Of a stretch of DNA of 36,107 nucleotides, positions 8,201 to 35,172 are shown one piece after another. The number at the start of each line of letters is the position of its first letter. Position 1 is the stretch's first letter. This DNA comes from an uncultured Bacteroides sp. (GTDB taxonomy: Bacteria; Bacteroidota; Bacteroidia; Bacteroidales; Bacteroidaceae), in contig CALUOO010000021.1 in the NCBI GenBank assembly GCA_944322345.1, positions 1 to 36,107 of the forward strand, read 5' to 3'. The position numbers and the translations under genes were made by a program. The notes beneath the pieces are model-generated. The model did no database searches and had not been told where the DNA came from. It worked only from the letters and a program-made list of their open reading frames with translations.

Positions 8201-11131
8201 TTACTTACCATTCTCTTCTCCCAAAAAATGCAGGATACTTGCCATGATTGCGGCACGATCGGTTTCGGACCGAATACTTTCGAAAGGGAACCCCATGACG
8301 AATGTACGATAATCGTCGCCACGATAGGCTATGGCAGCGCTTTGATTTCCGGATTCATAAACAAAGACAGAAAAAGCATCAGGAGAGGGGAGGAGGCAGT
8401 CGGGTTGACAGACTGCATAGCTCTCTTCGTTTGGTAAGCGCGGGATATAGACCGTGCGCCCCAATCCAGTAATGGCTTCGGAAGAAGAATCGGACAGGCT
8501 TGTTTCAAAAGAGAATTTCAAGATGTTTGACGTAAACTCACGGTTGCCTTGCGTAGCGTTCATATCGCTTCCCACATAGGAGCCGCTTACAAAAATTCTA
8601 CCGCCCGAGTGGCAATAACTGCTGATGGCGCGTTGCATGGGTGATGAAAAGGTTTTATAATAGACTCTGTCTGTTGCCGATTCTTTCTCCAATCCCAAGA
8701 TGAGATCGACGATTGGATAGTCCTCTAAAGATACAATGCCGTCTTCAACGGCTTCGTCGCTGCAGGAGCCAAAACTGTATGCGCCAGCTGCCTGAATAGC
8801 CTTTCCGTGAATAAAAGGATAGTCAAAAGTGTTGCCTGCAATTTTCACTCCCTCTAATTCGTCGGTACTATAACCTAAACTACCTTTACCTTCTTTACCT
8901 CCTGCAGCACGGTCAAAACAAGTTTGTGCCCCACAGAAGGAGGTATTGTACAGATAGGGTACTCCGGGATCTTTACTGAGGTCAAAACCTGCCTGTGAAG
9001 GGGTATTGACAACGGCAGGTGCGCCGATGCGGTCAAAGCCGTTAACAATAAGCACTCTTTCTCGTTCGCGTTTTGCTTTATAGGCAGAAAGAATTTCGGA
9101 TGGGAAACTTTCTCCTCCGCGATTGACAGCTGTCACTTTGAATGAATAGACGATGCCTGGCTCTATCTTTACAGTGTGCGAGGGTTGGTTGACGAGCGTT
9201 CCGTTGTCGAATCCTCCTCGCCCGATACGGGTGTAGACAATGTACTGTCGTGGGCGTGCTGTAGGTTCCTGTGGATCATTTTCGGGTGTCCATGTCAGTT
9301 CGACAGTATTTTTCTTCTTACCAAAACGTATAGCGAAATGACTGACAGGAAGAGGCTGTACGACCGATTCACGGTTGTGTTGTCCATTCAGAAAACGCAG
9401 GATACCTTTGTAAATAGCACGTCCGACGGTGAACTTGAAGTTCGGGTCGTGACCAAGTTGCATGTCTGCAAAGTTCTGATGTGAAAGCAATTCTACAATT
9501 GCTGATGGAACGGCAGGCAAGCGAGTCTCGCTATAGTTACGATTCCACAGACTGCGTCTTGTCCACGGCAGGTTGTATGCCGACTGTATGTCACTCTGTA
9601 TTTGGGTAAGCAGTATATCTGCCAAATCCCGTGAGGCATAGCGATCTGTACCGTCGTTCAATTTTCCATCGTTAAAATCAGTAGTGTAAATGCCAAGAGT
9701 GCCGATGATATCATCAGACGGATTATATCCGGCGTCGCTATGGAGTGCCATTGTCATTTCCAACGGTACTCCCAATCCATGTTGATTAGGATTGTAGACT
9801 GAACCTCCAGAAAGATAATTGATAACATTGGAGCGTGTATTGATATCGTCTGCATAGTCGTTCTCTCCCTGTCGTCCGGCATAGGTTTCGTAGGGCATCC
9901 CCGACCATTGTGCCATATATCGAGCCCCTTCAAGATAACGGGGCAGCCCGCTCGTTTTTCCATCTCGGGCTATGTTGCCCATTCCACCACCAAAACGCAC
10001 TGCATCGGCACAAACGACTCCCTCTTCGTCGCTTTCATTACTCAGCACCACCATGCCATAATCGTTACTTCCTTCGTCAAACTCAAACGTGCCAAGGTAA
10101 ACCCAAGTCCCGCCTCCAATCTGTTGGTTTACTTTAAATTCAGTAACTCCTCCGTTGTGGAATACCAGATATTTGGCATCACTGACGCTGTTAGGCTGTG
10201 TCTGGTAGGATACATATACGGAATACCAGCCATGTACAGGCAAGGTAGGTACCCATTCGGCAAAAACCTGTTCCCGCTTTTTTTTCTTAGGTTTTTCTGT
10301 GCGAATAATACGGCAACTTCCTGTAGTAAAAGGATTCTCTCCTTCAGTGTAGATTTTTTTGTGTTGTGCGAATCCCTGACCGGATGCTGTTTCCCATTGC
10401 GCCTTTTTGCCTCCTACTTCCAGATAGAGGGAGGCGTTTGGGGTATCATTGTCAACGATAATCTCATGTGCCTGTATATCTCGTTCACGAGGGGTATAGA
10501 CGATAGCTCCGGCATTTTCGAGCATAGGAATTACGTATGGCAAAATAAATGATTGGGTGAATAGGTCTTCAGTGGTACAAAAAAGCCGAGGACGTTGCCA
10601 CCCCCATTCTCCCTTGTCATTCTTGAAATAACTACCATGACTTTGCCACAGGGCAATATGACGGTTCTGTAACCCCTGCTGAGCTTCGTAAGGACGAGAC
10701 ATGTTCTGTATCCACGGAGCGCCCCTATATTCCGTATGTAAAGACATTCGTTCCTTATCTCTGTCTTTATTCTTGCTACGATATATATTAGGGATTAGCT
10801 CTTCAATAGCTTTTCCATCGGTCATTAGTTTTATCTTGTAATAATAAACAGGACCAGGAAGAATGGATTGGATTTGTTTATATATAGCATCTACAGTCTC
10901 CTGTTTAAAAGGTTGATAAGCGAAACTTTCCGAAGCATAGATAGTAAGTCGCTTATGCTCATAGTCAATATTTAGGCTATCCAGTTTAACTGAGCTGATT
11001 TTAGCCTGTGTTGAATAAGTATTAAAATAATGAATCAGCCGCTCCTTTACGTTTCTTTCAATATCTTGTGCAAATAGTGTATATTGTAATCCGATAGTAA
11101 GGCAAATCAAAAATAATAATCTCTTTTTCAT
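8201..11131 (-). CDS. Secreted amidase-like protein with golvesin and FN3 domains
   Basis: A 976-residue protein with a signal peptide (residues 1-21, ending LFAQ). The central part (about 145-580) looks like an N-acetylmuramoyl-L-alanine amidase-3 fold split by a golvesin/xanthan-lyase beta domain. Zn-ligand candidates appear in order: SHG (IALWQSHGSYF), E in CTTEDL, H in MALHSDAGY, and the catalytic E in AIVELLSHQNF. The inserted golvesin domain is about 290-385. A fibronectin-III domain follows (about 595-690), then a C-terminal ThuA/xanthan-lyase-like domain to the end. Database names are often ‘xanthan lyase’; I regard peptidoglycan amidase activity as more likely since all Zn ligands appear present. 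Acts outside the cytoplasm. Confidence 0.8.
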   Translation of the reverse strand: MKKRLLFLICLTIGLQYTLFAQDIERNVKERLIHYFNTYSTQAKISSVKLDSLNIDYEHKRLTIYASESFAYQPFKQETVDAIYKQIQSILPGPVYYYKIKLMTDGKAIEELIPNIYRSKNKDRDKERMSLHTEYRGAPWIQNMSRPYEAQQGLQNRHIALWQSHGSYFKNDKGEWGWQRPRLFCTTEDLFTQSFILPYVIPMLENAGAIVYTPRERDIQAHEIIVDNDTPNASLYLEVGGKKAQWETASGQGFAQHKKIYTEGENPFTTGSCRIIRTEKPKKKKREQVFAEWVPTLPVHGWYSVYVSYQTQPNSVSDAKYLVFHNGGVTEFKVNQQIGGGTWVYLGTFEFDEGSNDYGMVVLSNESDEEGVVCADAVRFGGGMGNIARDGKTSGLPRYLEGARYMAQWSGMPYETYAGRQGENDYADDINTRSNVINYLSGGSVYNPNQHGLGVPLEMTMALHSDAGYNPSDDIIGTLGIYTTDFNDGKLNDGTDRYASRDLADILLTQIQSDIQSAYNLPWTRRSLWNRNYSETRLPAVPSAIVELLSHQNFADMQLGHDPNFKFTVGRAIYKGILRFLNGQHNRESVVQPLPVSHFAIRFGKKKNTVELTWTPENDPQEPTARPRQYIVYTRIGRGGFDNGTLVNQPSHTVKIEPGIVYSFKVTAVNRGGESFPSEILSAYKAKRERERVLIVNGFDRIGAPAVVNTPSQAGFDLSKDPGVPYLYNTSFCGAQTCFDRAAGGKEGKGSLGYSTDELEGVKIAGNTFDYPFIHGKAIQAAGAYSFGSCSDEAVEDGIVSLEDYPIVDLILGLEKESATDRVYYKTFSSPMQRAISSYCHSGGRIFVSGSYVGSDMNATQGNREFTSNILKFSFETSLSDSSSEAITGLGRTVYIPRLPNEESYAVCQPDCLLPSPDAFSVFVYESGNQSAAIAYRGDDYRTFVMGFPFESIRSETDRAAIMASILHFLGEENGK

Positions 11132-11150
11132 TTTTCATTGATGTTTTCTG

Positions 11151-11158
11151 CAAATGTA
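11151..11158 (-). promoter_or_regulatory. -7 box of the amidase-like gene
   Basis: TACATTTG on the minus strand, 20 bp before the start codon at 11131. It sits directly beyond the terminator of the upstream gene; no good -33 box is visible. Confidence 0.45.
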
Positions 11159-11166
11159 GACAAAAA

Positions 11167-11197
11167 AAGAGTGAGAGGCATTCTACCCCTCACTCTT
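11167..11197 (-). terminator. Rho-independent terminator of the NagB-like/PIG-L gene
   Basis: Inverted arms AAGAGTGAGAGG (11167-11178) and CCCCTCACTCTT (11186-11197), about 11 pairs with a 7-nt loop, followed on the minus strand by a T-run. It lies 21 bp after the stop codon of the gene upstream. Confidence 0.85.
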
Positions 11198-11217
11198 CCT
11201 TACCATTTTTATACAAT

Positions 11218-13209
11218 TTATAATGGAATATATTCTACAAATGCTTCCATTGCTTCGTAGGAAGCTAATCCTAACTGGTCGTATAAAGTAGCTGTGCCCC
11301 GATTGCGATCTTCACTCCGTTGCCAGAACAATCGCTCGTCATTACCAAGGAATGGAGCACTTTCCATTTGTGACTGATGTTTCAATATGGAATTACGTTT
11401 TGCTCTAAGCTCTTCGGGACTGATAGGAACTGCCATTTCGATATTTTCAATTTCCCATTCTGCCCATGCACCTCTATACATCCATATACGACATTCTTTC
11501 AGCCATTTGGCTCCTTCTTCTTTTTCGAGGTCTATAGCCGCAAATACCGCATCAGTACATACACGGTGTGTACCATGTGGATCAGCAAGGTCGCCGGCAA
11601 CAAAAATTTGATGAGGTTTCACCTCTCGAAGTAAATTACGTACAATTTCCACATCTGCCTCGCTAATAGGATTCTTCTGAATTTTACCAGTTTCATAGAA
11701 CGGCAAATCGAGGAAATGGCAATGATCCAGCGGAATATTGTTGTATGTGCAGGCTGTACGTGCTTCTCCACGACGAATCAAACCTTTTATTGTAAGTATA
11801 TCCCTTGTATCCATATCGCCATCCTTTTTCTCTTTCAGGAAGTTACGAATTTCCGCATATTTTTCATTTATCACTTGGTCTTCGCTATTATTGAATAGCT
11901 GGTTGAATCCATTGATAAAATGCAAAAAACGAACTACTTCTTCATCGCCTACAGCAATGTTTCCGGAAGTTTCATAAGCGACATGTACATCATGTTTCTG
12001 TTCAACCAAACGACGGAGAGTTCCTCCCATGGAAATCACATCATCATCAGGATGAGGAGAGAAAATGATAATTCGTTTTGGATAAGGTTTGGCACGTTCT
12101 GGACGATATGTATCATCTGCATTAGGCTTACCACCAGGCCATCCCGTAATAGTATGCTGTAAATCATTAAATATCTTTATATTTACATTATATGCAGAAC
12201 CGTAAAGAGCAAGAAGTTCACTCAACCCATTTTCATTATAATCCTTATTTGTCAGTTTTAAAATAGGTTTTCCTGTCAATTGGCACAACCACACAATTGC
12301 ACTACGAATCAATTTATCATTCCACTCACATGATGTCACTAACCAAGGACGTTGGATACGCGTCAGATTCATGGAAGCCGAAAGATCGACAATTACATGG
12401 GAATTGTTGTGAGTCTGCAAATAAGAAGCTGGAATAGTATCTGAAATAGCTCCTTCTACACATTCTTTAATCATGGCAGCTTTATCTTCACCCCATGCCA
12501 GCAGGAATACTTTTTTCGCTCCCAATATGGTAGAGACTCCCATTGTGATGGAACTGATCGGAGTATTTTCCAAAGTCCCAAATATTTTAGAGGCTTCGTT
12601 ACGCGAAGCATTGTCCAACAAAATAAGACGTGTAGTAGAATTCAATCGTGATCCCGGTTCGTTAAAAGCTATATTTCCTACTCGTCCGATACCCAGTAAA
12701 GCAATATCAATACCACCAAAACTTTCAATACGTTGTTCGTACAACCGGCAATATTCAAAAATTGCATCTTTTGCAATAGTTCCGTCTGGTGAAAATATGT
12801 TTTGCCGGTCAATATCAACATAATCCAGCAACATGCTTTTCAAAGCGTTGAGGTTGCTATTGATAGCTTCTGATGTCAAAGGATAATATTCATACATATT
12901 AAATACTATCACATTGCGAAAGCTTAACCCCTCTTCTTTATGCATGCGAATCAATTCTTTGTATACATGACTAGGAGAGTTTCCTCCGGGTAATGCCAAT
13001 ACACAAAAACGTCCTGCTTTCTGTTTCTCACGGATAGTCTGTGCTATTTCACAAGCTATATAGCGTGCCCCTTCTTCCACTGACTCATAAATGTCTGTAG
13101 GAATTTTTTCAAGCCTTGTCAACACCGACTTTTCAAATGCATTCTCCGGTCTATAGTATTTGGGGGAGACTCTGTGGAGAGTGATTTGAGAACTAAGATT
13201 TGTTTTCAT
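11218..13209 (-). CDS. NagB-like domain fused to a PIG-L/LmbE deacetylase
   Basis: A 663-residue cytoplasmic fusion. Residues ~30-290 are a glucosamine-6-phosphate deaminase (NagB) fold with the phosphate-binding LALPGGNSPS loop. Compared with E. coli NagB, Asp72 is Tyr106 (FNMYEYYPL), Asp141 is Val177 and His143 is Asn179 (GIGRVGNIAFNEP); only Glu148 (Glu184) is kept. Isomerisation/deamination is therefore doubtful; a sugar-phosphate sensor or binding role is possible. Residues ~380-650 are a PIG-L/LmbE de-N-acetylase with intact Zn motifs SPHPDDDV and HGTH. The fusion is common in Bacteroides and often named nagB. Function inferred: amino-sugar deacetylation governed by the NagB-like part. 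Own terminator at 11167-11197. Confidence 0.88.
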   Translation of the reverse strand: MKTNLSSQITLHRVSPKYYRPENAFEKSVLTRLEKIPTDIYESVEEGARYIACEIAQTIREKQKAGRFCVLALPGGNSPSHVYKELIRMHKEEGLSFRNVIVFNMYEYYPLTSEAINSNLNALKSMLLDYVDIDRQNIFSPDGTIAKDAIFEYCRLYEQRIESFGGIDIALLGIGRVGNIAFNEPGSRLNSTTRLILLDNASRNEASKIFGTLENTPISSITMGVSTILGAKKVFLLAWGEDKAAMIKECVEGAISDTIPASYLQTHNNSHVIVDLSASMNLTRIQRPWLVTSCEWNDKLIRSAIVWLCQLTGKPILKLTNKDYNENGLSELLALYGSAYNVNIKIFNDLQHTITGWPGGKPNADDTYRPERAKPYPKRIIIFSPHPDDDVISMGGTLRRLVEQKHDVHVAYETSGNIAVGDEEVVRFLHFINGFNQLFNNSEDQVINEKYAEIRNFLKEKKDGDMDTRDILTIKGLIRRGEARTACTYNNIPLDHCHFLDLPFYETGKIQKNPISEADVEIVRNLLREVKPHQIFVAGDLADPHGTHRVCTDAVFAAIDLEKEEGAKWLKECRIWMYRGAWAEWEIENIEMAVPISPEELRAKRNSILKHQSQMESAPFLGNDERLFWQRSEDRNRGTATLYDQLGLASYEAMEAFVEYIPL

Positions 13210-23562: not shown

Positions 23563-23888
23563 ATTGTAAAATGGAGTATATCCCATTGTACTATAGCTGA
23601 TAATATAAGTTTTTGTAGCCCATTTTTGAAAAATGGCAAATTGGGCTGCAAATGGGCTGCAAAAATCACTTTTTCAGGACTTAATTAAGTGATAATTGCT
23701 CTGCTCCTGGGGCTTGACTGCAATAGCCTTTGGAAAAACTATATTTTTAGATTATCATAGTCTTATTTTTCTTCTTACTTGATAAGACAAGATAAACAAA
23801 GAGAAGTCTATTAGAATATCCCTAAACTATAAATTACGGTAAATAAAAAACTCCTGCAACCATTTAGATTACAGGAGTTTATATATTC
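23563..23888. promoter_or_regulatory. Control region of the relic integrase
   Basis: TTGTAGCCCA (23613-23622, inverted, one mismatch) and two direct copies of TGGGCTGCAA (23642-23651 and 23653-23662) with an 11-bp period. The last copy is 227 bp from the repeat at 23889. The intact element has the same layout with another sequence (33877-33925). A terminator (23849-23879) ends the region. Confidence 0.6.
23849..23879 (-). terminator. Terminator after the displaced GGGtGRT 3' end
   Basis: AACTCCTG (23849-23856) pairs with CAGGAGTT (23872-23879); on the minus strand a T-run follows. It matches in position, not in sequence, the terminator behind the intact gene. Confidence 0.75.
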
Positions 23889-23967
23889 GATTAAGTATAG
23901 ATTACTTATTCAAAGCGGTAGCAACGTCAACTGCACATGCAACTGTACATCCTACCATAGGGTTGTT
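23889..23967. repeat. Distal attachment repeat, 79 bp
   Basis: Identical to 34149-34227. Beyond 23967 the match continues at 93% to 24080 (8 differences in 113), then ends abruptly. Confidence 0.85.
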
Positions 23968-24078
23968 GCCGATACCCAAGAATCCCATCATTTCTACGTG
24001 AGCAGGAACTGATGAAGATCCAGCAAACTGAGCATCTGAGTGCATACGCCCCATAGTATCTGTCATACCATAAGAAGC
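23902..24078 (-). pseudogene. Displaced 3' end of the GGGtGRT gene
   Basis: The last 58 codons of the GGGtGRT gene (from ASYGMTDTMGR to the stop). All eight base differences from the intact gene are synonymous, so the protein sequence is unchanged. The fragment can be read from a chance ATG at 24087, but has no promoter or first 278 residues. It marks the far boundary of the element. Confidence 0.85.
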
Positions 24079-24087
24079 AGCGACCAT

Positions 24088-24386: not shown

Positions 24387-24548
24387 TTAATTCATTTCTC
24401 TTGCCCACCATAAAAAGGCTCTAATTTCTTCATCCTTGATATTCTCATAGAATTTGTCTGGGTCTTTCCAATATTCTTCCTTAGATAATCCAAATTTATC
24501 TAACACTCCCTCTATTCTTTTTATCAAAGCTTCTACTGATACTGTCAT
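24387..24548 (-). CDS. Small protein, 53 aa
   Basis: MTVSVEALIKRIEGVLDKFG... ends with FLWWAREMN. It is acidic, helical and has good codon use. No family is recognised. It lies 73 bp beyond the PBP-like gene, behind that gene's terminator, so it would depend on read-through or an unseen promoter. Last gene before the left end of the element. Confidence 0.6.
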   Translation of the reverse strand: MTVSVEALIKRIEGVLDKFGLSKEEYWKDPDKFYENIKDEEIRAFLWWAREMN

Positions 24549-24565
24549 AATTATTTATTTTAAAA

Positions 24566-24599
24566 AACAGCATAAGAGTTTTTAAGCTCAAATGCTGTT
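24566..24599 (-). terminator. Terminator of the PBP-like cargo operon
   Basis: AACAGCAT (24566-24573) pairs perfectly with ATGCTGTT (24592-24599); a T-run follows on the minus strand. It begins 22 bp after the stop at 24622. Confidence 0.85.
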
Positions 24600-24621
24600 C
24601 TTACATAAAAATTAAAATCGG

Positions 24622-25644
24622 CTATTTAACCATATAATCTACTATCTGCCTAAACACCTCACCAGCCATAAATCCAGCAGCAGGTAATTCTTCTTTATTG
24701 ATAGAAACGATAATAGAATACTGCGGATTATCAGCAGGAAAGTAACCGCAAAATTCTACTAAATAACTTTCATCTTCAAGTTGTGCCGTCCCAAATTCAC
24801 CTGCAACTTTTACCTTCTCAGATTTTGCAGATTGTCCAAATCCATCAGTAACGATATATTCCAAAGCCTGTTTCAGACTGTCAATATTAGCTTGACTTGC
24901 TATCTGTGGATTGATAACTGTTGTGCTGTCTTTGTAAAGTTGCGGTTGTACCATTTTACCATTATTGGCTATCGCATTATAGAAAGTCAATATCTGGATA
25001 GGAGCTATCTTTTGTTCATATCCAATGCTGAGCCATGCAAAAGTTGTTTCTTTTGTAGGAACATTTATAAATGCAGGTTTTAACTTGGCTATCCCCACTA
25101 TGCTATCTGGTTTGCCATAATCCATTTTGCTTAATTGATTGGAATAGCTTTGTGGTTTAAAAGACTTTTCCACTGTTTTATAGATAACAATGTTAGAACT
25201 TGCAGCTAAACCTTCGTTAATTGTGAGCTTTCCATATCCACCTCTATGCCAATTATGATCTTTCAACTCTCGATCTTGTATAGAATAAACTCCTTCTCCC
25301 ACATCTACAGTATCGGACAAAAGAACTTTACCTGTTTCCAATGCAGCCAATATGGATACGGGGTGCATGAGTCCTGTTTCACGTGATTGGAAAAAGTTCT
25401 CACTTGGTTGATAGTTTACACTATCTTTCCTTTCAAGTCCTACCATAGCTTTTATCTGCCCGGTCTGAACTTCCATGATTATGGCTTGTCCAGATAAGGC
25501 ATTGAGTTCTGTTAGTTTATTCTCTAAGATAGAGGTAACTTTAGTTTGCAAGGTACAGTCTATTGAAGAGCTAACATTTTTATTGTTCGAGCAAGACGTC
25601 ATTCCTATCATTGATAGGAATAATATCCACTTATGTGTTCTCAT
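24622..25644 (-). CDS. Penicillin-binding-protein-like lipoprotein without catalytic residues
   Basis: A 340-residue protein with a lipoprotein signal (lipobox MTSC, Cys18) followed by SNNKN, without the acidic surface-export signal of Bacteroides; it is probably held in the periplasm. Residues ~40-340 match the transpeptidase domain of FtsI-type PBPs: LAALETG, DTVDVGEG, the SxN motif SSN (149-151), IGYEQKIAPIQILTFYNAIANNG. But the nucleophile motif SxxK reads LMHP (92-95) and the KTG triad reads EFG (283-285, in AGEFGTAQ). So the fold is kept and activity is surely lost. It stands last in a row with three small genes. Possible roles: decoy or partner for a host PBP, immunity, or regulation; all inference. 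Confidence 0.85.
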   Translation of the reverse strand: MRTHKWILFLSMIGMTSCSNNKNVSSSIDCTLQTKVTSILENKLTELNALSGQAIIMEVQTGQIKAMVGLERKDSVNYQPSENFFQSRETGLMHPVSILAALETGKVLLSDTVDVGEGVYSIQDRELKDHNWHRGGYGKLTINEGLAASSNIVIYKTVEKSFKPQSYSNQLSKMDYGKPDSIVGIAKLKPAFINVPTKETTFAWLSIGYEQKIAPIQILTFYNAIANNGKMVQPQLYKDSTTVINPQIASQANIDSLKQALEYIVTDGFGQSAKSEKVKVAGEFGTAQLEDESYLVEFCGYFPADNPQYSIIVSINKEELPAAGFMAGEVFRQIVDYMVK

Positions 25645-25676: not shown

Positions 25677-25994
25677 TTACAGATTCATTTTTGCTGCTAA
25701 TAGCAAGGAAGAGCCTGTAATTAAATCCATGCTACCAAAATCTTTAATAATGGGAATCATATTATTTATAATATATGAATCAGAAATAGGAGGTTTGCAT
25801 CCTTGTGCATATTCTTTAAAGAAATAGAATAAACAGTTATCCCTTTCTTGTTCAGAAAGATGTTCTTGTTCTTTGAGTAGATAATGAATGGCTTTAAGTT
25901 CCTTTGCCATTTGCATTTGATTATTAAGATGTCCACCGACCATCATAGCTCCAAAAATAGAGCGCATCACTTTTTTCTGTTGATCTTCATTCAT
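25677..25994 (-). CDS. Unknown helical protein, 105 aa
   Basis: Not recognised. Helical throughout, with a heptad-like stretch LKAIHYLLKEQEHLSEQERD (about 33-52). The N-terminal FGAMMVGGHLNNQMQM and C-terminal SLLLAAKMNL parts are moderately hydrophobic but no real membrane helix is seen. It lies 32 bp before the PBP-like gene and 25 bp after the 99-aa gene, all in one direction, so they form an operon. Confidence 0.7.
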   Translation of the reverse strand: MNEDQQKKVMRSIFGAMMVGGHLNNQMQMAKELKAIHYLLKEQEHLSEQERDNCLFYFFKEYAQGCKPPISDSYIINNMIPIIKDFGSMDLITGSSLLLAAKMNL

Positions 25995-26019: not shown

Positions 26020-26319
26020 TTATAATAATTCTTCCGCTTGCTGTACTAAAGATGCTGCTATTCCATGCAGATCCATTATTGTCATTTTTTTGCCCTTAAA
26101 ATAATAGGGTGCAAGAAAAACACTTCGTCCTGCGTTTTGTAATATATCTGTTATTTCGCCCATTAGAACAGATACTGTACCACATTCTACTCTCAGACGT
26201 TCTTTGTTGATATGGCTAGGATAGTTCAGTTCTCTTGCAATATAATCTAAATGTGGTTCTAGCTGTTTAATAAGAGTATTAATGCGTCCAATAGCATTGT
26301 AATTTGAAAAAAATCCCAT
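26020..26319 (-). CDS. Unknown protein, 99 aa
   Basis: Not recognised. A soluble, mainly helical product starting MGFFSNYNAIGRINTLIKQL and ending HGIAASLVQQAEELL. The middle has GEITDILQNAGRSVFLAPYY. The motif-like FFSNYNAIGRINTLI could anchor to a membrane or partner. It lies between the small membrane protein gene and the 105-aa gene in the cargo row. Confidence 0.7.
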   Translation of the reverse strand: MGFFSNYNAIGRINTLIKQLEPHLDYIARELNYPSHINKERLRVECGTVSVLMGEITDILQNAGRSVFLAPYYFKGKKMTIMDLHGIAASLVQQAEELL

Positions 26320-26425: not shown

Positions 26426-26701
26426 TTAATCAGAAGAACCAAAGAATGTATTTGGATGAATAAATAGTCCAATAATAAATGCTACCAAACAAATAAATCC
26501 TCTTATTGATTCACCACCGAAACCTAGCGAACCTAATATTATTGAGCTAATTATAAAAGCTCCTAAGGTAATTAATAAGGCTACCAAAATTCGTCCTACA
26601 ATATTTCCCAAAAACTGTCCCATATATTTTATTATTATGCTTATCGTCCCCATATAAGCAATTAATAATCTGATAAAAAGCATTGAGGAACACATAACCA
26701 A
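26426..26701 (-). CDS. Small membrane protein, 91 aa (or 65 aa)
   Basis: Two strong hydrophobic helices (about residues 36-58 and 66-82, numbered from 26701) joined by GSLGFGGESIRG. With the start at 26701 a further hydrophobic N-terminal stretch is added; an internal ATG at 26623 (MGQFLGNIVGR) gives 65 residues and looks equally natural. A TATATTTG box at 26737-26744 suits the longer form. First gene of the cargo row, 106 bp before the 99-aa gene. Function unknown. Confidence 0.65.
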   Translation of the reverse strand: MVMCSSMLFIRLLIAYMGTISIIIKYMGQFLGNIVGRILVALLITLGAFIISSIILGSLGFGGESIRGFICLVAFIIGLFIHPNTFFGSSD

Positions 26702-27408: not shown

Positions 27409-27684
27409 TTATTTCTTGGCGTAATGGTATCTCATGGAAAAGATATAAACCTCTATTGTATCATCGTGCACAGAGTAGACAATTCTATGCTCGGCATTGA
27501 TTCGTCTTGACCATTTCCCTGCCAGCTCATATTTAAGCGGTTCTGGTTTTCCTATTCCAGTATATGGATGTACGACAATATCTTCCAATAAAGTTTTGAT
27601 TTTATTTAAGATAGCCTTATTCCCGCTTTGGATGAAGTATAGATATTCTTTCCGTGCCTGTTCTGATAATGTTATTCTGTACAT
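27409..27684 (-). CDS. YoeB/Txe-family mRNA interferase toxin
   Basis: A 91-residue RelE-superfamily ribosome-dependent endoribonuclease. Family features: ITLSEQARKEY at the start, HPYTGIGKPEPLKYELAGKWSRRIN in the middle and the ending IFSMRYHYAKK with the catalytic His-Tyr. Length agrees with YoeB (about 84-90). Its start overlaps the antitoxin gene by 13 bp, the usual antitoxin-first order. It likely stabilises the integrative element. Confidence 0.93.
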   Translation of the reverse strand: MYRITLSEQARKEYLYFIQSGNKAILNKIKTLLEDIVVHPYTGIGKPEPLKYELAGKWSRRINAEHRIVYSVHDDTIEVYIFSMRYHYAKK

Positions 27685-27962
27685 GCTGCCCGTTTTAAGA
27701 AATCCTCTATGCTTTCACCTTTATTCTGGGATATAGAATTACCATTCTTAATATCCTCTTCACCTTTATGTATTGCTTCCATTGTTTCAGGTGAAGACAT
27801 GATGTATTCCGTTTCCTTTAGAGAATTGTATTCATCCAAAGAAATCATTACCACTCCTTTGCCATTTCCACGATTGATAACTACGGTATCATAATCATCA
27901 ATGACCGCATCAATGTAGCTTTTCAAGTTGGCTCTTAAATCTGTGTAATTGGCTGTTTTCAT
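27672..27962 (-). CDS. YefM/Phd-family antitoxin
   Basis: A 96-residue partner of the YoeB toxin. The N-terminal Phd/YefM DNA-binding domain is clear (MKTANYTDLRANLKSYIDAV, TVVINRGNGKGVVMISLDEY), followed by an acidic, likely flexible toxin-binding tail. A strong AAAGGAGG ribosome-binding site precedes the ATG, unusual in this window. It has a near-consensus promoter containing a small palindrome where the protein may bind and repress its own operon. Confidence 0.93.
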   Translation of the reverse strand: MKTANYTDLRANLKSYIDAVIDDYDTVVINRGNGKGVVMISLDEYNSLKETEYIMSSPETMEAIHKGEEDIKNGNSISQNKGESIEDFLKRAACTE

Positions 27963-28095: not shown

Positions 28096-29115
28096 TTAAT
28101 CAATGAACCATTTATATCTTTCATCACCATGCAAAGCCGCATTGATTCCCAAAGCCATTTCTGTAGCATTCAGAGAACGGTCTAAGAATGAATCAATATA
28201 GCTTGACTTATTAGCTCCTGTCAATAAATTATAGAATTTCCACATATTAAGCTCACTCCCAAAACTGCCAAAATTATCATCATTGATATATGCTTTTGCA
28301 ACACTGTTTATCTGTGTATCAGTAAGCAACATTCTTGGCAGTGCCTTTTGATAGCCTGTTGGCAAGCATTGATAAAGACGCATCTTGCCTATTATTTGGC
28401 AGAATTGGTGTTCACTCATGCAAGTGTTGCCCAATTGCTGCATCAGATAAAGGTGTTTGGCTGGGTTGTAGTTACTGAAAAGTTCCAATGCTGCACGATA
28501 GAGTTCTGTAGTATTGCTTACCCTCAAATCATCCTTGTAGCCATCCGTAAAAATGCACATGTTACAGCAGACTTGATTCTTAAAACCTATAGCCAAGCGG
28601 AAAAGTTCCGGTACTTTCTTGCTGTACAAGTTCATTTGGTTATAAGCTCTCACACCTACGATGGAAAGATTCAGTTTATTTTCACCTACCGTTTCATAAA
28701 TGGTAGGAATGTCAATGCTAAATGCTGCCCTTTCATAATAGATAGTTTTGTCAGATTCCAACAGTTGGTTGGCTGGTTTGTGGATAGCTTCAGGGATTCT
28801 GCCTTTTATGATATGGCTTGTCCTGATAGTGGCTTGTTCCACTTTCTCACCATTAAAGAAAGACAATGCTGCATCCTGTATGGTTTCCACAAACTGAGCA
28901 TGATTAATGGTCAGTTCATTGTCTTTAGAGAACACTGGAGTGATGCAATCATTCTTCAAATGATTCAATGTTACTTCCTGTGTGTTGGCTTCGATGAAAT
29001 GATTGGCTGGTTTTACTGATTCGTCCATGATAATGGTAGCTTCTTCTGCATATTCACCCAAATTCATTCTCTCACGATTGTTTGCCATTGATGGCATAAT
29101 AATTAAATTTCTCAT
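28096..29115 (-). CDS. DUF3871 family protein
   Basis: A 339-residue protein with the DUF3871 pattern: an N-terminal variable part, ELTINHAQFVETIQDAA, VEQATIRTSHIIKGRIPEAI, SIVGVRAYNQMNL and GFKNQVCCNMCIFTDG, ending with NLLTGANKSSYIDSFLDRS and HGDERYKWFID. Two adjacent cysteines and a third (CCNMC) may bind metal. The family is spread by Bacteroides mobile elements, and resembles phage/plasmid proteins of the DUF932 type that persist near replication or anti-restriction genes; the role is unknown. Start MRNLIIMPS at 29115; a later ATG (29094) is possible. Confidence 0.85.
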   Translation of the reverse strand: MRNLIIMPSMANNRERMNLGEYAEEATIIMDESVKPANHFIEANTQEVTLNHLKNDCITPVFSKDNELTINHAQFVETIQDAALSFFNGEKVEQATIRTSHIIKGRIPEAIHKPANQLLESDKTIYYERAAFSIDIPTIYETVGENKLNLSIVGVRAYNQMNLYSKKVPELFRLAIGFKNQVCCNMCIFTDGYKDDLRVSNTTELYRAALELFSNYNPAKHLYLMQQLGNTCMSEHQFCQIIGKMRLYQCLPTGYQKALPRMLLTDTQINSVAKAYINDDNFGSFGSELNMWKFYNLLTGANKSSYIDSFLDRSLNATEMALGINAALHGDERYKWFID

Positions 29116-30626: not shown

Positions 30627-31511
30627 CTACTTCTTTATTTGTTCTGTCAATTTAGTTAGAGCTTCCTTATAAGATTTGGCTTCCATACTCTGACCTGCGA
30701 TTGGGGTGAAGTACTTATTCCAATTCTCTTTATTGATATGTTTGATAGTATTTACAACTATTTCTATATCCTTACATTCAGTAAAGAATGCTTTCAATCC
30801 TGCTCCAAAACGTCCAGTAAACCTATCATTAGAGATGAAACTGTTAGATTCTAATGCCGCTAAGATTCTATCTCCCTTATCTTGTGTGTCTTTGCTGATT
30901 TGGACTTTACTAAAGTCAGAGAGTTTCTTATATCCTTGTTGGATTGACTTGATTTGTGCTGCTGTCAGATTAGATGTTCCAAGAGTATAAATGTTGAAAA
31001 GGAATGCAGGAATATAGCCTTCTTTTCTTTTACTAAGAATATAGTCTGCATTAGTATCTCCTGTTGAAATATTGGAAGCATAAAAATCATCATTAGACCA
31101 TTTCCTGCCATTGTTACGTATTGATATGTAAGCCAATATATCCATATTCTCTTTAGAGAGTTTTACTGGCTGATAAGTAGCTGTAACATCATTCAATTCA
31201 TCAAACATGAGGGCTATTGTTCTATGCTGGCCATCGCCACAAACACCATCGTACTTGTCATAGTCTGCTTCCTGTACTTCAACCATTTTAATCTCGAAAT
31301 TGCTGATAGTAGCAGAGCCTTCCCCTTTCTTGCGAGCAATAGTAGGTTTGTACAACTTTCTACCGCCTAATTTATTCTTAGCTTCTTCCATTGGGAAGTA
31401 TTCAATAGGCATTGTTTCAATGAATCCCCATGCCTTAATCTTGTTGTAAGATTCAACTACGTTAGAATTGTCAATTTTAGTGCGGTTGCCTTTAATAAAT
31501 AATAAATTCAT
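30627..31511 (-). CDS. ParB-like (DGQHR) nucleotide/DNA-binding-type protein
   Basis: A 294-residue protein. The motif GDGQHRTIAL (about residues 92-101) is the signature of ParB N-terminal/sulfiredoxin-like and DGQHR-domain proteins. Upstream is the matching strand segment IEYFPMEEA. The C-terminal half (about 130-290) is helical with KSIQQGYKKLSDF. No HTH of classical ParB and no ParA partner is present, so plasmid partition is uncertain; transcription control or a CTP-dependent switch are alternatives. Its promoter start point carries a palindrome and the 60-nt leader can fold completely. Confidence 0.75.
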   Translation of the reverse strand: MNLLFIKGNRTKIDNSNVVESYNKIKAWGFIETMPIEYFPMEEAKNKLGGRKLYKPTIARKKGEGSATISNFEIKMVEVQEADYDKYDGVCGDGQHRTIALMFDELNDVTATYQPVKLSKENMDILAYISIRNNGRKWSNDDFYASNISTGDTNADYILSKRKEGYIPAFLFNIYTLGTSNLTAAQIKSIQQGYKKLSDFSKVQISKDTQDKGDRILAALESNSFISNDRFTGRFGAGLKAFFTECKDIEIVVNTIKHINKENWNKYFTPIAGQSMEAKSYKEALTKLTEQIKK

Positions 31512-32575: not shown

Positions 32576-33793
32576 TTAGTAATCAGAATTTCCAGTAAAC
32601 GTATCCATGAGTTTATCCATCTGCTCACCTATGCACTTATCTATTAGCTTTGCATAATGGGCAGTCATTCGCGTATTGGTATGTCCTAACATCTTAGAAA
32701 CAACTTCCAGAGATATGCTATTAGCTAAAGTAACTGTACTTGCGAACGTATGGCGACTTGTATGAAAACAGATTCGCTTATTAATTCCACAGAGTATAGC
32801 TATATCCTTTAGATATTTGTTGATGTCCGCAGGGTCTTGAATAGGGAGTAACTTCTCTCCATCTTTGTACTTATCCAATATCAGCTTGGCGATAGGGAGT
32901 AGGGGAATGCGTGATAGAATTCCTGTTTTAACTCTACGCTTTTTAATCCATATTCTGCCTGCACTGTCTTTCTCAAAGTGTTCTGGAGTCAAGGTCTTAA
33001 TATCAATGTAACTAAGCCCAGTGAAGCATCCAAACAGAAACATATCTTTAGCTCGTTCCAATCTTGGTAGGGGAGTATCAAAATTGATAATCTTCCTCAA
33101 TTCTTCCTCATCCAAGAAATCAATTTCTACAGGTTCACGTTCCACCTTATAAGTAGAGAATGGATTGAACGCCATATAGGAGTTGGCTACTGATAGATTG
33201 ATAATCTTCTTCAATAGCTTTAAATGTTTAGTGGATGAGTTCTGTGCCATGCCCTTATCGATTCTTAGGAATGAATGAAAAGATTGGATGAAGTTTAGAT
33301 TCAATTCACGTAAGTATAAATCTTCTCGTTTGTATTTCTGCTGAATAAATTCTCTTAATAATCTGATGGTATAGACAGACACCCAATGAGTAGCTTTAGA
33401 AACTCCATTACCTATCAACTTCTCTTGCTCTTGGTTATGTTCTTCAAAGACTTCAAACAGGCTTCTCTCTTTAATGGATTCTACCTTATCAAAGTAAGCA
33501 TCACGCAATAGGTCTGCTGTGATTATAAAACCTCTGTCTAACAGTTCTGCTTCTTTCTGATATAGTTTAGCCTTAATAGCTTTTAGGTAGTTGTTGAGGC
33601 TTTGAGCTTCTTCATCCTTGCCTTTTACTTGTTGCTTAACCTTGTCCCATTTATCAATGGCTACTAGTTTGCCTGTTGAAAGAGTGCATCTGTCACCGTT
33701 TACTGTAATTGTAATCTCAATAGGAGCTTTACCACTCTTTCTTGCTTTACTTTCTCTTATGGCAAAGAGAATAGAGAATGAACTTCTTACCAT
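32576..33793 (-). CDS. Tyrosine recombinase (site-specific integrase)
   Basis: A 405-residue integrase. An N-terminal arm-binding domain (about 1-90, ILFAIRESKARKSGKAPIEI) is followed by a SAM-like core-binding domain (about 105-205) and the catalytic domain (about 220-395). Catalytic residues: His344 and Arg347 (HTSRH), His371 (LGHTN) and Tyr380 (AHYAKL). The box-I arginine is replaced: CFTGLSYIDI has Ser where TGLR is usual, as in the IntDOT-type integrases of Bacteroides conjugative transposons. It points away from the attachment repeat and host gene 356 bp upstream. It is expected to catalyse integration into the GGGtGRT gene's 3' end. Confidence 0.95.
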   Translation of the reverse strand: MVRSSFSILFAIRESKARKSGKAPIEITITVNGDRCTLSTGKLVAIDKWDKVKQQVKGKDEEAQSLNNYLKAIKAKLYQKEAELLDRGFIITADLLRDAYFDKVESIKERSLFEVFEEHNQEQEKLIGNGVSKATHWVSVYTIRLLREFIQQKYKREDLYLRELNLNFIQSFHSFLRIDKGMAQNSSTKHLKLLKKIINLSVANSYMAFNPFSTYKVEREPVEIDFLDEEELRKIINFDTPLPRLERAKDMFLFGCFTGLSYIDIKTLTPEHFEKDSAGRIWIKKRRVKTGILSRIPLLPIAKLILDKYKDGEKLLPIQDPADINKYLKDIAILCGINKRICFHTSRHTFASTVTLANSISLEVVSKMLGHTNTRMTAHYAKLIDKCIGEQMDKLMDTFTGNSDY

Positions 33794-34148
33794 AGTTTAA
33801 TCATTTAAAATTAGACATTAGGGAAGTCCTTTAAAATTGATGTATCTATCTGTATATTAGAATAATATAATTGATTTTGCGACCACTTGTAAAGATTTGA
33901 TAAAATGGTCGCAATATGGTCGCAAATATAGCTTCAATTTAGCTCCATTTTAAGGATAATCAGTCACATTTACCCTTAAAGATTCAAGCTCCATTTAAGC
34001 CATAATTTGCTTCAATTCTATTATTCAATCACAGCCTATTATAAAAGAATAGCAAGAGGTAATGAGTAATTAGATAGGGGATAATCATTGCAGTAGAAGT
34101 AAAATAAAAATCCCCATAACTCATGGAGTTACAGGGATTTACTATCTT
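33794..34148. promoter_or_regulatory. Integrase upstream region with candidate arm sites
   Basis: It holds one inverted and two direct copies of TGGTCGCAA (33877-33885 inverted; 33906-33914 and 33917-33925 direct, 11-bp period). Two further pairs of direct repeats follow: GCTTCAATT (33931-33939, 34009-34017) and AGCTCCATTT (33941-33950, 33987-33996). These are candidate integrase arm or accessory-factor sites. A terminator for the host gene is at 34108-34140. No gene is seen. Confidence 0.6.
34108..34140 (-). terminator. Terminator of the GGGtGRT gene, carried by the element
   Basis: AAATCCC (34108-34114) pairs with GGGATTT (34134-34140), with inner TAACTC/GAGTTA (34117-34130); a T-run follows on the minus strand. 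It lies outside the shared repeat, so the element supplies it to the host gene. Confidence 0.8.
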
Positions 34149-34227
34149 GATTAAGTATAGATTACTTATTCAAAGCGGTAGCAACGTCAACTGCACATGC
34201 AACTGTACATCCTACCATAGGGTTGTT
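34149..34227. repeat. Proximal attachment repeat, 79 bp
   Basis: Identical to 23889-23967. It covers the last 22 codons and the stop of the intact GGGtGRT gene plus 13 bp. Confidence 0.85.
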
Positions 34228-35172
34228 ACCAATACCAAGAAATCCCATCATTTCTACGTGAGCAGGAACTGATGAAGAACCAGCAAATTGAGCATCTGAG
34301 TGCATACGACCCATAGTATCTGTCATACCATAAGAAGCAGGACCAGCAGCCATATTATCTGGGTGAAGTGTACGCCCAGTACCACCACCTGATGCTACAG
34401 AGAAATAAGGCTTACCTGCCAAAACACGCTCTTTCTTGTAAGTACCTGCTACTGGATGTTGAAAACGGGTTGGATTTGTAGAGTTACCTGTAATAGATAC
34501 ATCTACACCTTCCTTCCACATAATAGCTACACCTTCACGAACATCATCCGCTCCATAGCATTTTACTTTTGCACGAGGACCATCAGAATAAGCAATCTCA
34601 CGGACAACTTTCAGTTCACCTGTATAATAATCAAATTGAGTTTGAACATATGTAAATCCATTGATGCGAGAAATGATTTGAGCGGCATCCTTGCCTAAAC
34701 CATTTAAGATACAACGAAGAGGTTCTTTACGTACCTTATCTGCCTTGGCTGCAATCTTAATAGCTCCTTCTGCAGCAGCAAAAGATTCATGACCTGCTAA
34801 AAATGCAAAACACTTAGTTTCTTCTCTTAACAACATTGCAGCCAAATTTCCATGCCCTAAACCGACCTTGCGATCATCAGCTACTGAACCTGGAATACAA
34901 AATGATTGTAGCCCTATTCCAATAGCCTCAGCAGCTTCAGCAGCATTTTTACAGCCTTTTTTGATAGCAATAGCACAACCTACTACGTATGCCCATTTTG
35001 CATTTTCAAAGCATATTGGTTGAGTTTCTTCACACGTTTTATAAGGATCGAGACCATAAGACTCACAGATAGCGTTAGCTTCTTCAATGTCTTTTATTCC
35101 ATTAGCGTTCAATGCAGCTAAAATCTGTTTGATACGGCGGTCTTGGCTTTCAAATTTTACTTCTCTAATCAT
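34162..35172 (-). CDS. GGGtGRT protein
   Basis: A 336-residue member of the GGGtGRT family, named from the motif seen here at 262-268 (SVASGGGTGRTLHPDN). Other conserved parts are AFLAGHESFAAAEGAI, YVQTQFDYYTGEL and the glycine-rich C-terminus GFLGIGNNPMVGCTVACAVD. There are several cysteines, including GCT and ACA near the end. The family is regularly encoded after a NifU-like scaffold gene, as here (18-bp gap), suggesting a role connected with an Fe-S cluster or metal cofactor; the reaction is unknown. The 3' end is the insertion target of the element; the protein is complete. Confidence 0.9.
   Translation of the reverse strand: MIREVKFESQDRRIKQILAALNANGIKDIEEANAICESYGLDPYKTCEETQPICFENAKWAYVVGCAIAIKKGCKNAAEAAEAIGIGLQSFCIPGSVADDRKVGLGHGNLAAMLLREETKCFAFLAGHESFAAAEGAIKIAAKADKVRKEPLRCILNGLGKDAAQIISRINGFTYVQTQFDYYTGELKVVREIAYSDGPRAKVKCYGADDVREGVAIMWKEGVDVSITGNSTNPTRFQHPVAGTYKKERVLAGKPYFSVASGGGTGRTLHPDNMAAGPASYGMTDTMGRMHSDAQFAGSSSVPAHVEMMGFLGIGNNPMVGCTVACAVDVATALNK

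Follow-up and report, generated by a model that had tools for sequence, protein, structure and literature searches.

A 36,107-nucleotide stretch of DNA from an uncultured Bacteroides sp., called the window here at its full length, carries a gene for a pseudo-transpeptidase lipoprotein (PBPL), and we hold with high confidence that this is a mobile, selected pseudo-transpeptidase related to FtsI. As catalytic residues have been lost and selection keeps the protein, PBPL probably works by binding and not by building cell wall. Its family grades from motif-complete to fully eroded members and would show an essential cell-wall enzyme turned into a binding protein. A role as decoy or immunity protein is our tentative preference, held at less than even confidence. 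We found no description of the short PBPL family in the open-licence literature searched.

PBPL and its element

The sequence-only reading had recognized an FtsI-like transpeptidase fold, and a domain match and a structure model, which gives the fold with high confidence, bear this out. The TP domain spans residues ~25-340, starting after the lipobox (MTSC), and the N-terminal TM helix and pedestal domain are absent. An intact frame, a lipoprotein signal and a strong terminator had likewise been read from the DNA, and all are present (Table 1); the hairpin behind the gene was found by folding energy and missed by a simple terminator consensus scan. At the active site, GLMH aligns opposite STFK with no Ser at the nucleophile position, the KTG site is EFG and SxN is intact as SSN. 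A Ser-x-x-Lys at another place in the active site had been named as an observation that would speak against a dead enzyme; where the active-site helix starts, the alignment and the structure model disfavour one. From these motifs PBPL is probably catalytically inactive and should bind no penicillin covalently. Besides PBPL, two further genes in the host genome encode full-length proteins of this type, open frame 723 (FtsI-like) and open frame 626 (PF00905). PBPL is 44% identical to the host's FtsI-like protein over 24-336.

The element is flanked by repeats inside the 3' end of a GGGtGRT gene. Its array genes have 30-37% GC, and the cluster of the small frame behind PBPL, c11, occurs in six loci, the window counted. 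A YoeB/YefM-type pair stands where other elements often have a 195-aa tyrosine recombinase, and protein clustering found no such recombinase in the window element. Elsewhere in the window, 30627-31511 encodes a protein without a Pfam or PADLOC match that bears a DGQHR motif, known from DndB-like proteins.

Table 1. Features of the PBPL element and its insertion site in the window
Feature	Position	Strand	Basis
Element end repeat, PBPL side, remnant of GGGtGRT 3' end	23841..24086	(-)	repeat alignment
53-aa ORF (cluster c11), between PBPL and element end	24387..24548	(-)	ORF clustering
Terminator-like hairpin and U run, directly 3' of PBPL	24551..24612	(-)	-18 kcal/mol, z -4.9
PBPL, pseudo-transpeptidase lipoprotein, 340 aa	24622..25644	(-)	ORF, domain search, alignment, model
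105-aa gene (c50), co-oriented, 32 bp upstream of PBPL	25677..25994	(-)	no Pfam match
99-aa gene (c24), co-oriented array gene	26020..26319	(-)	no Pfam match
~90-aa ORF, hydrophobic stretches (by eye), co-oriented array gene	26426..26701	(-)	no Pfam match
Toxin-antitoxin pair: YoeB-like toxin 27409-27684, Phd/YefM-like antitoxin 27672-27962	27409..27962	(-)	E 1.9e-27, 1e-18
DUF3871 protein, marker of element family	28096..29115	(-)	Pfam E 1.3e-163
Tyrosine integrase, arm-binding, SAM-like and catalytic domains	32576..33793	(-)	Pfam
Element end repeat, integrase side	34102..34345	(-)	90.3% over 247 columns vs 23841-24086
GGGtGRT gene, 3' end = insertion site	34162..35172	(-)	annotation and repeat alignment

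Erosion of the active site

Homologues with similar losses, which the sequence-only reading had advised seeking, occur in many genomes. The catalytic Lys is present in one of 33 distinct short proteins (identical proteins collapsed; near copies L153, L156, L157, L158 and L160 left out) and is replaced by H, R, Q, Y, C, E or S in the other 32, and SxxK (regex, before the helix) likewise occurs in 1/33. Ser stands in the nucleophile column of five members. SxN is kept oftener than SxxK (S in 21/33, N in 23/33); AGK[TS]G occurs in eight of the 33, and the G of KTG in every one. Judged by alignment, the specific loss in the short family is in SxxK; retention at the six catalytic positions jointly is not significantly lower than at 103 other FtsI-invariant positions (p 0.07). 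The claim that every motif but SxN is lost thus describes the window copy but not the family, in which SxN erodes too and one protein, L119, has all three motifs.

L119 (8989-10086) is a short lipoprotein with SLCK, SSN and KTGT, a Pfam score of 1.1e-43 and 57% identity to the window PBPL. L162 (with flanks, L182:8526-9725) keeps Ser, SSN and KTGT, has lost only the Lys (to Glu) and begins, by eye, with a TM-like stretch. As L119 is motif-complete and L162 lacks only the Lys, inactivation seems to have taken place inside the family, and SxxK loss as a family-wide trait is overturned by L119. In most lineages the serine was perhaps lost by codon deletion; in the alignment, substitution to Gly or Ala would fit equally. 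The start of L119 overlaps an upstream lipoprotein-like gene by 4 bases.

Kinship, spread and selection

A genome scan returned 44 loci, of which 28 (L001-L027 and L043) have the same short protein as the window; the remaining 16 encode full-length proteins of the FtsI type (15 Bacteroidota, one Bacillota). Short members occur in at least 12 of 158 genomes among the rows listed by a genus-wide search, and in at least 16 of 301 genomes sampled from the host family. The short proteins form one clade (100/100) with a long stem, grouped with Bacteroidaceae FtsI (92/83), in a tree that flags a long-branch risk for L055 and L057. A second tree, which further omits L004 and L024, places L162 as the earliest branch of the short family (100/97), with a long-branch warning that it may join FtsI falsely. 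The family alignments leave out L018 (contig end), L019 (split frame), L043 (fragment) and two copies of L022 (L021 and L023), and the L014 protein was read from an internal codon.

Shared segments point to the same kinship. In alignment A3, a DHNW(H/Y)RGG loop and a PASGG.MAG segment are present in 10/10 Bacteroidaceae FtsI rows, and mostly in the short proteins too, and are absent from 6/6 FtsI rows of other Bacteroidota. The loop, DHNWHRGG, aligns with P. aeruginosa PBP3 residues that presumably line the rim of the active-site cleft. Within a retention set of 27 proteins (without L119, L162, L163 and the near copies L017, L022, L056 and L053), the FtsI residues N131 and W132 are invariant, R134 is kept in 26, and F298, C299 and G300 are kept in 27 each; family-specific residues include L92 (27/27), Y155 (25/27) and E297 (24/27). 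Across 63 pairwise comparisons (dS 0.1-1.2), which are not independent of one another, the median NG86 dN/dS is 0.24; for the pairs with dS >0.1 among 45 listed, it ranges from 0.15 to 0.50. The many family members and the median dN/dS disfavour an isolated pseudogene.

Side of the membrane

A lipobox is found in 26 of the 31 short proteins read, five of them (L002, L005, L006, L015 and L026) re-read by eye where the script had picked another cysteine or missed the box. It is missing from L004, L024 and L055-L057; by eye, L055-L057 have an ordinary signal peptide. According to PMC5080379, surface lipoproteins of Capnocytophaga carry an acidic export signal right behind the cysteine, and one such signal is reported in B. 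fragilis. At +2 to +6, none of the short proteins carries more than one acidic residue, the window copy reading MTSC-SNNKN, so by that rule PBPL should face the periplasm. From the same arrays, six lipoproteins of clusters c18, c71 and c72 have two to four acidic residues at these positions, and other array lipoproteins have 0-1.

Loci of the relatives

Counting the window, 18 of 29 loci contain DUF3871. Of 66 listed DUF3871 rows, 40 were retrieved, and contig ends truncate six of these regions (L087, L092, L093, L099, L109 and L111); 11 of the 40 elements carry the short protein, and in the other 29 it was not found. In 26/29 loci PBPL has a co-oriented gene whose end lies no more than 60 bases upstream, and a 195-aa tyrosine recombinase occurs in 16/29. 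By our own ORF calls, this recombinase is followed in 16/16 loci by at least two co-oriented genes below 41% GC, with some opposite ORFs between. A 9-mer count for conserved intergenic motifs in the arrays gave mostly AT-rich words. For 89 array proteins, 25 of whose 61 Pfam families were inspected, no named immunity family appears.

Some neighbours of PBPL have known roles in conflict. Downstream by 16 bp in L016 lies an AbiP2-like reverse transcriptase (11043-12728; PADLOC E 9.1e-161), and in L043 a ZorB-like gene (1.9e-14) and a weak ZorA-like one (1.5e-05) precede a PBPL fragment. Proteins of the TerB, DnaJ, WG and Sel1 types each neighbour PBPL in a single locus. An array module resembling that of the window and made up of c61, c294, a TerB-like gene (Pfam 0.0011, below cut-off), c24 and c50 occurs without PBPL in L110, so none of its genes is an obligate PBPL partner. 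A phage origin was also considered and is disfavoured: viral contigs hold only one PBPL locus, PHROG gives no match, and the 21 matching records in phage collections are all below 60% identity.

Nearest known systems

The closest relative is FtsI/PBP3, the class B PBP of Bacteroidaceae, with which PBPL shares the transpeptidase fold, the DHNWHRGG loop, FCGYFP and MAG near the C-terminus. It differs in lacking the TM helix, pedestal, SxxK and KTG, in having a lipobox and in sitting on a mobile element, and the host retains its own full-length FtsI-like gene beside it. The arrays resemble recombinase-associated acquired interbacterial defence (rAID) of Bacteroidales, for which PMC12247911 gives the rule of at least two co-directional genes below 41% GC downstream of the recombinase. 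Sixteen PBPL relatives lie downstream of the 195-aa recombinase, among short, AT-rich, co-oriented variable genes. The window element has its own integrase and DUF3871. rAID calls for an upstream tyrosine recombinase homologous to BF9343_RS08045. We do not file PBPL as rAID, because clustering found no 195-aa recombinase in the window element and no named immunity family was seen among the inspected Pfam families.

Anti-phage defence of the AbiP2/DRT and Zorya-like kinds on integrative elements shares neighbourhoods with PBPL in L016 and L043, but PBPL itself has no PADLOC match at 0.01. The penicillin-sensing domains of BlaR1 and MecR1 are a further case of the PBP fold in a non-synthetic role. 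Those domains keep an acylatable serine and are part of a sensor-protease; the window PBPL has neither.

What PBPL may do

We propose a model where the TP domain of a Bacteroidaceae FtsI was copied and cut from its membrane anchor and pedestal, gained a lipoprotein signal in most cases, and was taken up as cargo by small integrative elements. Most lineages, that of the window copy included, would then have lost the nucleophile Ser and catalytic Lys with the fold still under selection. Lipid-tethered in the periplasm, PBPL would neither crosslink peptidoglycan nor be acylated by beta-lactams. It would act by binding, presenting an FtsI-like surface to an FtsI-attacking toxin, a contact-delivered effector or a phage factor, and the true enzyme may thereby be spared.

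A decoy or immunity role is favoured because of the conflict-like cargo context and the kept FtsI-like features. It stays tentative, since no toxin, effector or phage partner was found in the neighbourhoods and array proteins examined; the whole TP domain would also make a large decoy. Counting against it too are the 29 of 40 DUF3871 elements in which PBPL was not found, the PBPL-free module of L110, the single locus in viral contigs, the motif-complete L119, the joint retention test with p 0.07 and the array families inspected, none of them a named immunity family. The sequence-only reading had supposed a gene kept for a non-enzymatic role as decoy, antagonist, regulator or protection. Its first half has stood up well, with an FtsI-derived lipoprotein on a mobile element that is present in many genomes, has a low median dN/dS and an intact fold and almost always lacks the Lys; its second half gained no partner or toxin. 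It is tempting to speculate, although we think it somewhat unlikely, that this family of FtsI look-alikes gives gut Bacteroidaceae immunity by mimicry of an essential target, with the dead enzyme in the periplasm soaking up FtsI-directed interbacterial toxins or phage inhibitors. Should PBPL indeed be a decoy, this would point to an unknown class of weapons in the gut against the division transpeptidase FtsI, and PBPL would be a handle by which to find them.

The main rival is that PBPL modulates the host divisome: PBPL and FtsI would compete for a partner contacting the TP domain, and division would be slowed or redirected to the benefit of the element. The FtsI-derived domain with its FtsI-specific surface motifs would suit such a role, as would a gene with a weak tubulin/FtsZ match (2.2e-07, below Pfam's cut-off) behind the PBPL fragment in L043. 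Class B PBPs, however, meet FtsW and FtsQLB mainly through the TM and pedestal part, which PBPL lacks; it is also dispensable cargo, carried by at least 16 of the 301 sampled host-family genomes, and no link to an element function was seen. We therefore regard divisome modulation as rather doubtful. PBPL might also bind a ligand in its cleft without catalysis, be it the peptidoglycan stem peptide or some other, for instance as an envelope sensor or tether; the modelled PBP fold, the universal G of KTG and the kept rim loop are consistent with this. In active enzymes the stem peptide is held by K and T of KTG and by S and N of SxN, and because these differ between members we find this explanation quite improbable.

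Part of the family may be enzymatic, because L119 retains all three motifs; the near-complete L162 and the five members with a nucleophile-column Ser lean the same way. Enzymatic activity, whether by way of other residues or confined to some members, nevertheless strikes us as very improbable, with no nucleophile Ser in the window copy and the Lys replaced in nearly every relative. Hardly credible is decay of a gene without function. Broken copies do exist, L019 lying in two frames and L043 being a 92-aa C-terminal fragment, but intact frames in distant members, the dN/dS values, the high-confidence fold and family-specific residues such as L92 and E297 argue against it. Domain searches label genes of this type penicillin-binding transpeptidases, a label to be treated with caution in annotation.

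Additional observations

In L052 (1483-2943) and L053 (1465-2916), the C-terminus of PBPL is extended by a ~140-aa domain that belongs to no Pfam family. It occurs in 16/301 genomes in varied places; 12 fetched regions showed varying neighbours and no PBPL gene nearby. The same domain forms a separate lipoprotein-like gene at L025:10956-11504. In L043 (6535-12904), genes resembling radical-SAM proteins by eye lie past the tubulin/FtsZ-like gene. The L005 contig is titled as an uncultured Clostridium MAG and has a Bacteroidaceae-type array, likely a binning error.

Eight DUF3871 elements without PBPL (L078, L084, L085, L086, L089, L090, L091 and L101) carry cargo lipoproteins of 134 to 536 aa with near-alike signal peptides of the MKTFRL..SC(G/S)DDE type. 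Their mature parts resemble each other in L084, L086 and L091 and differ in the others.
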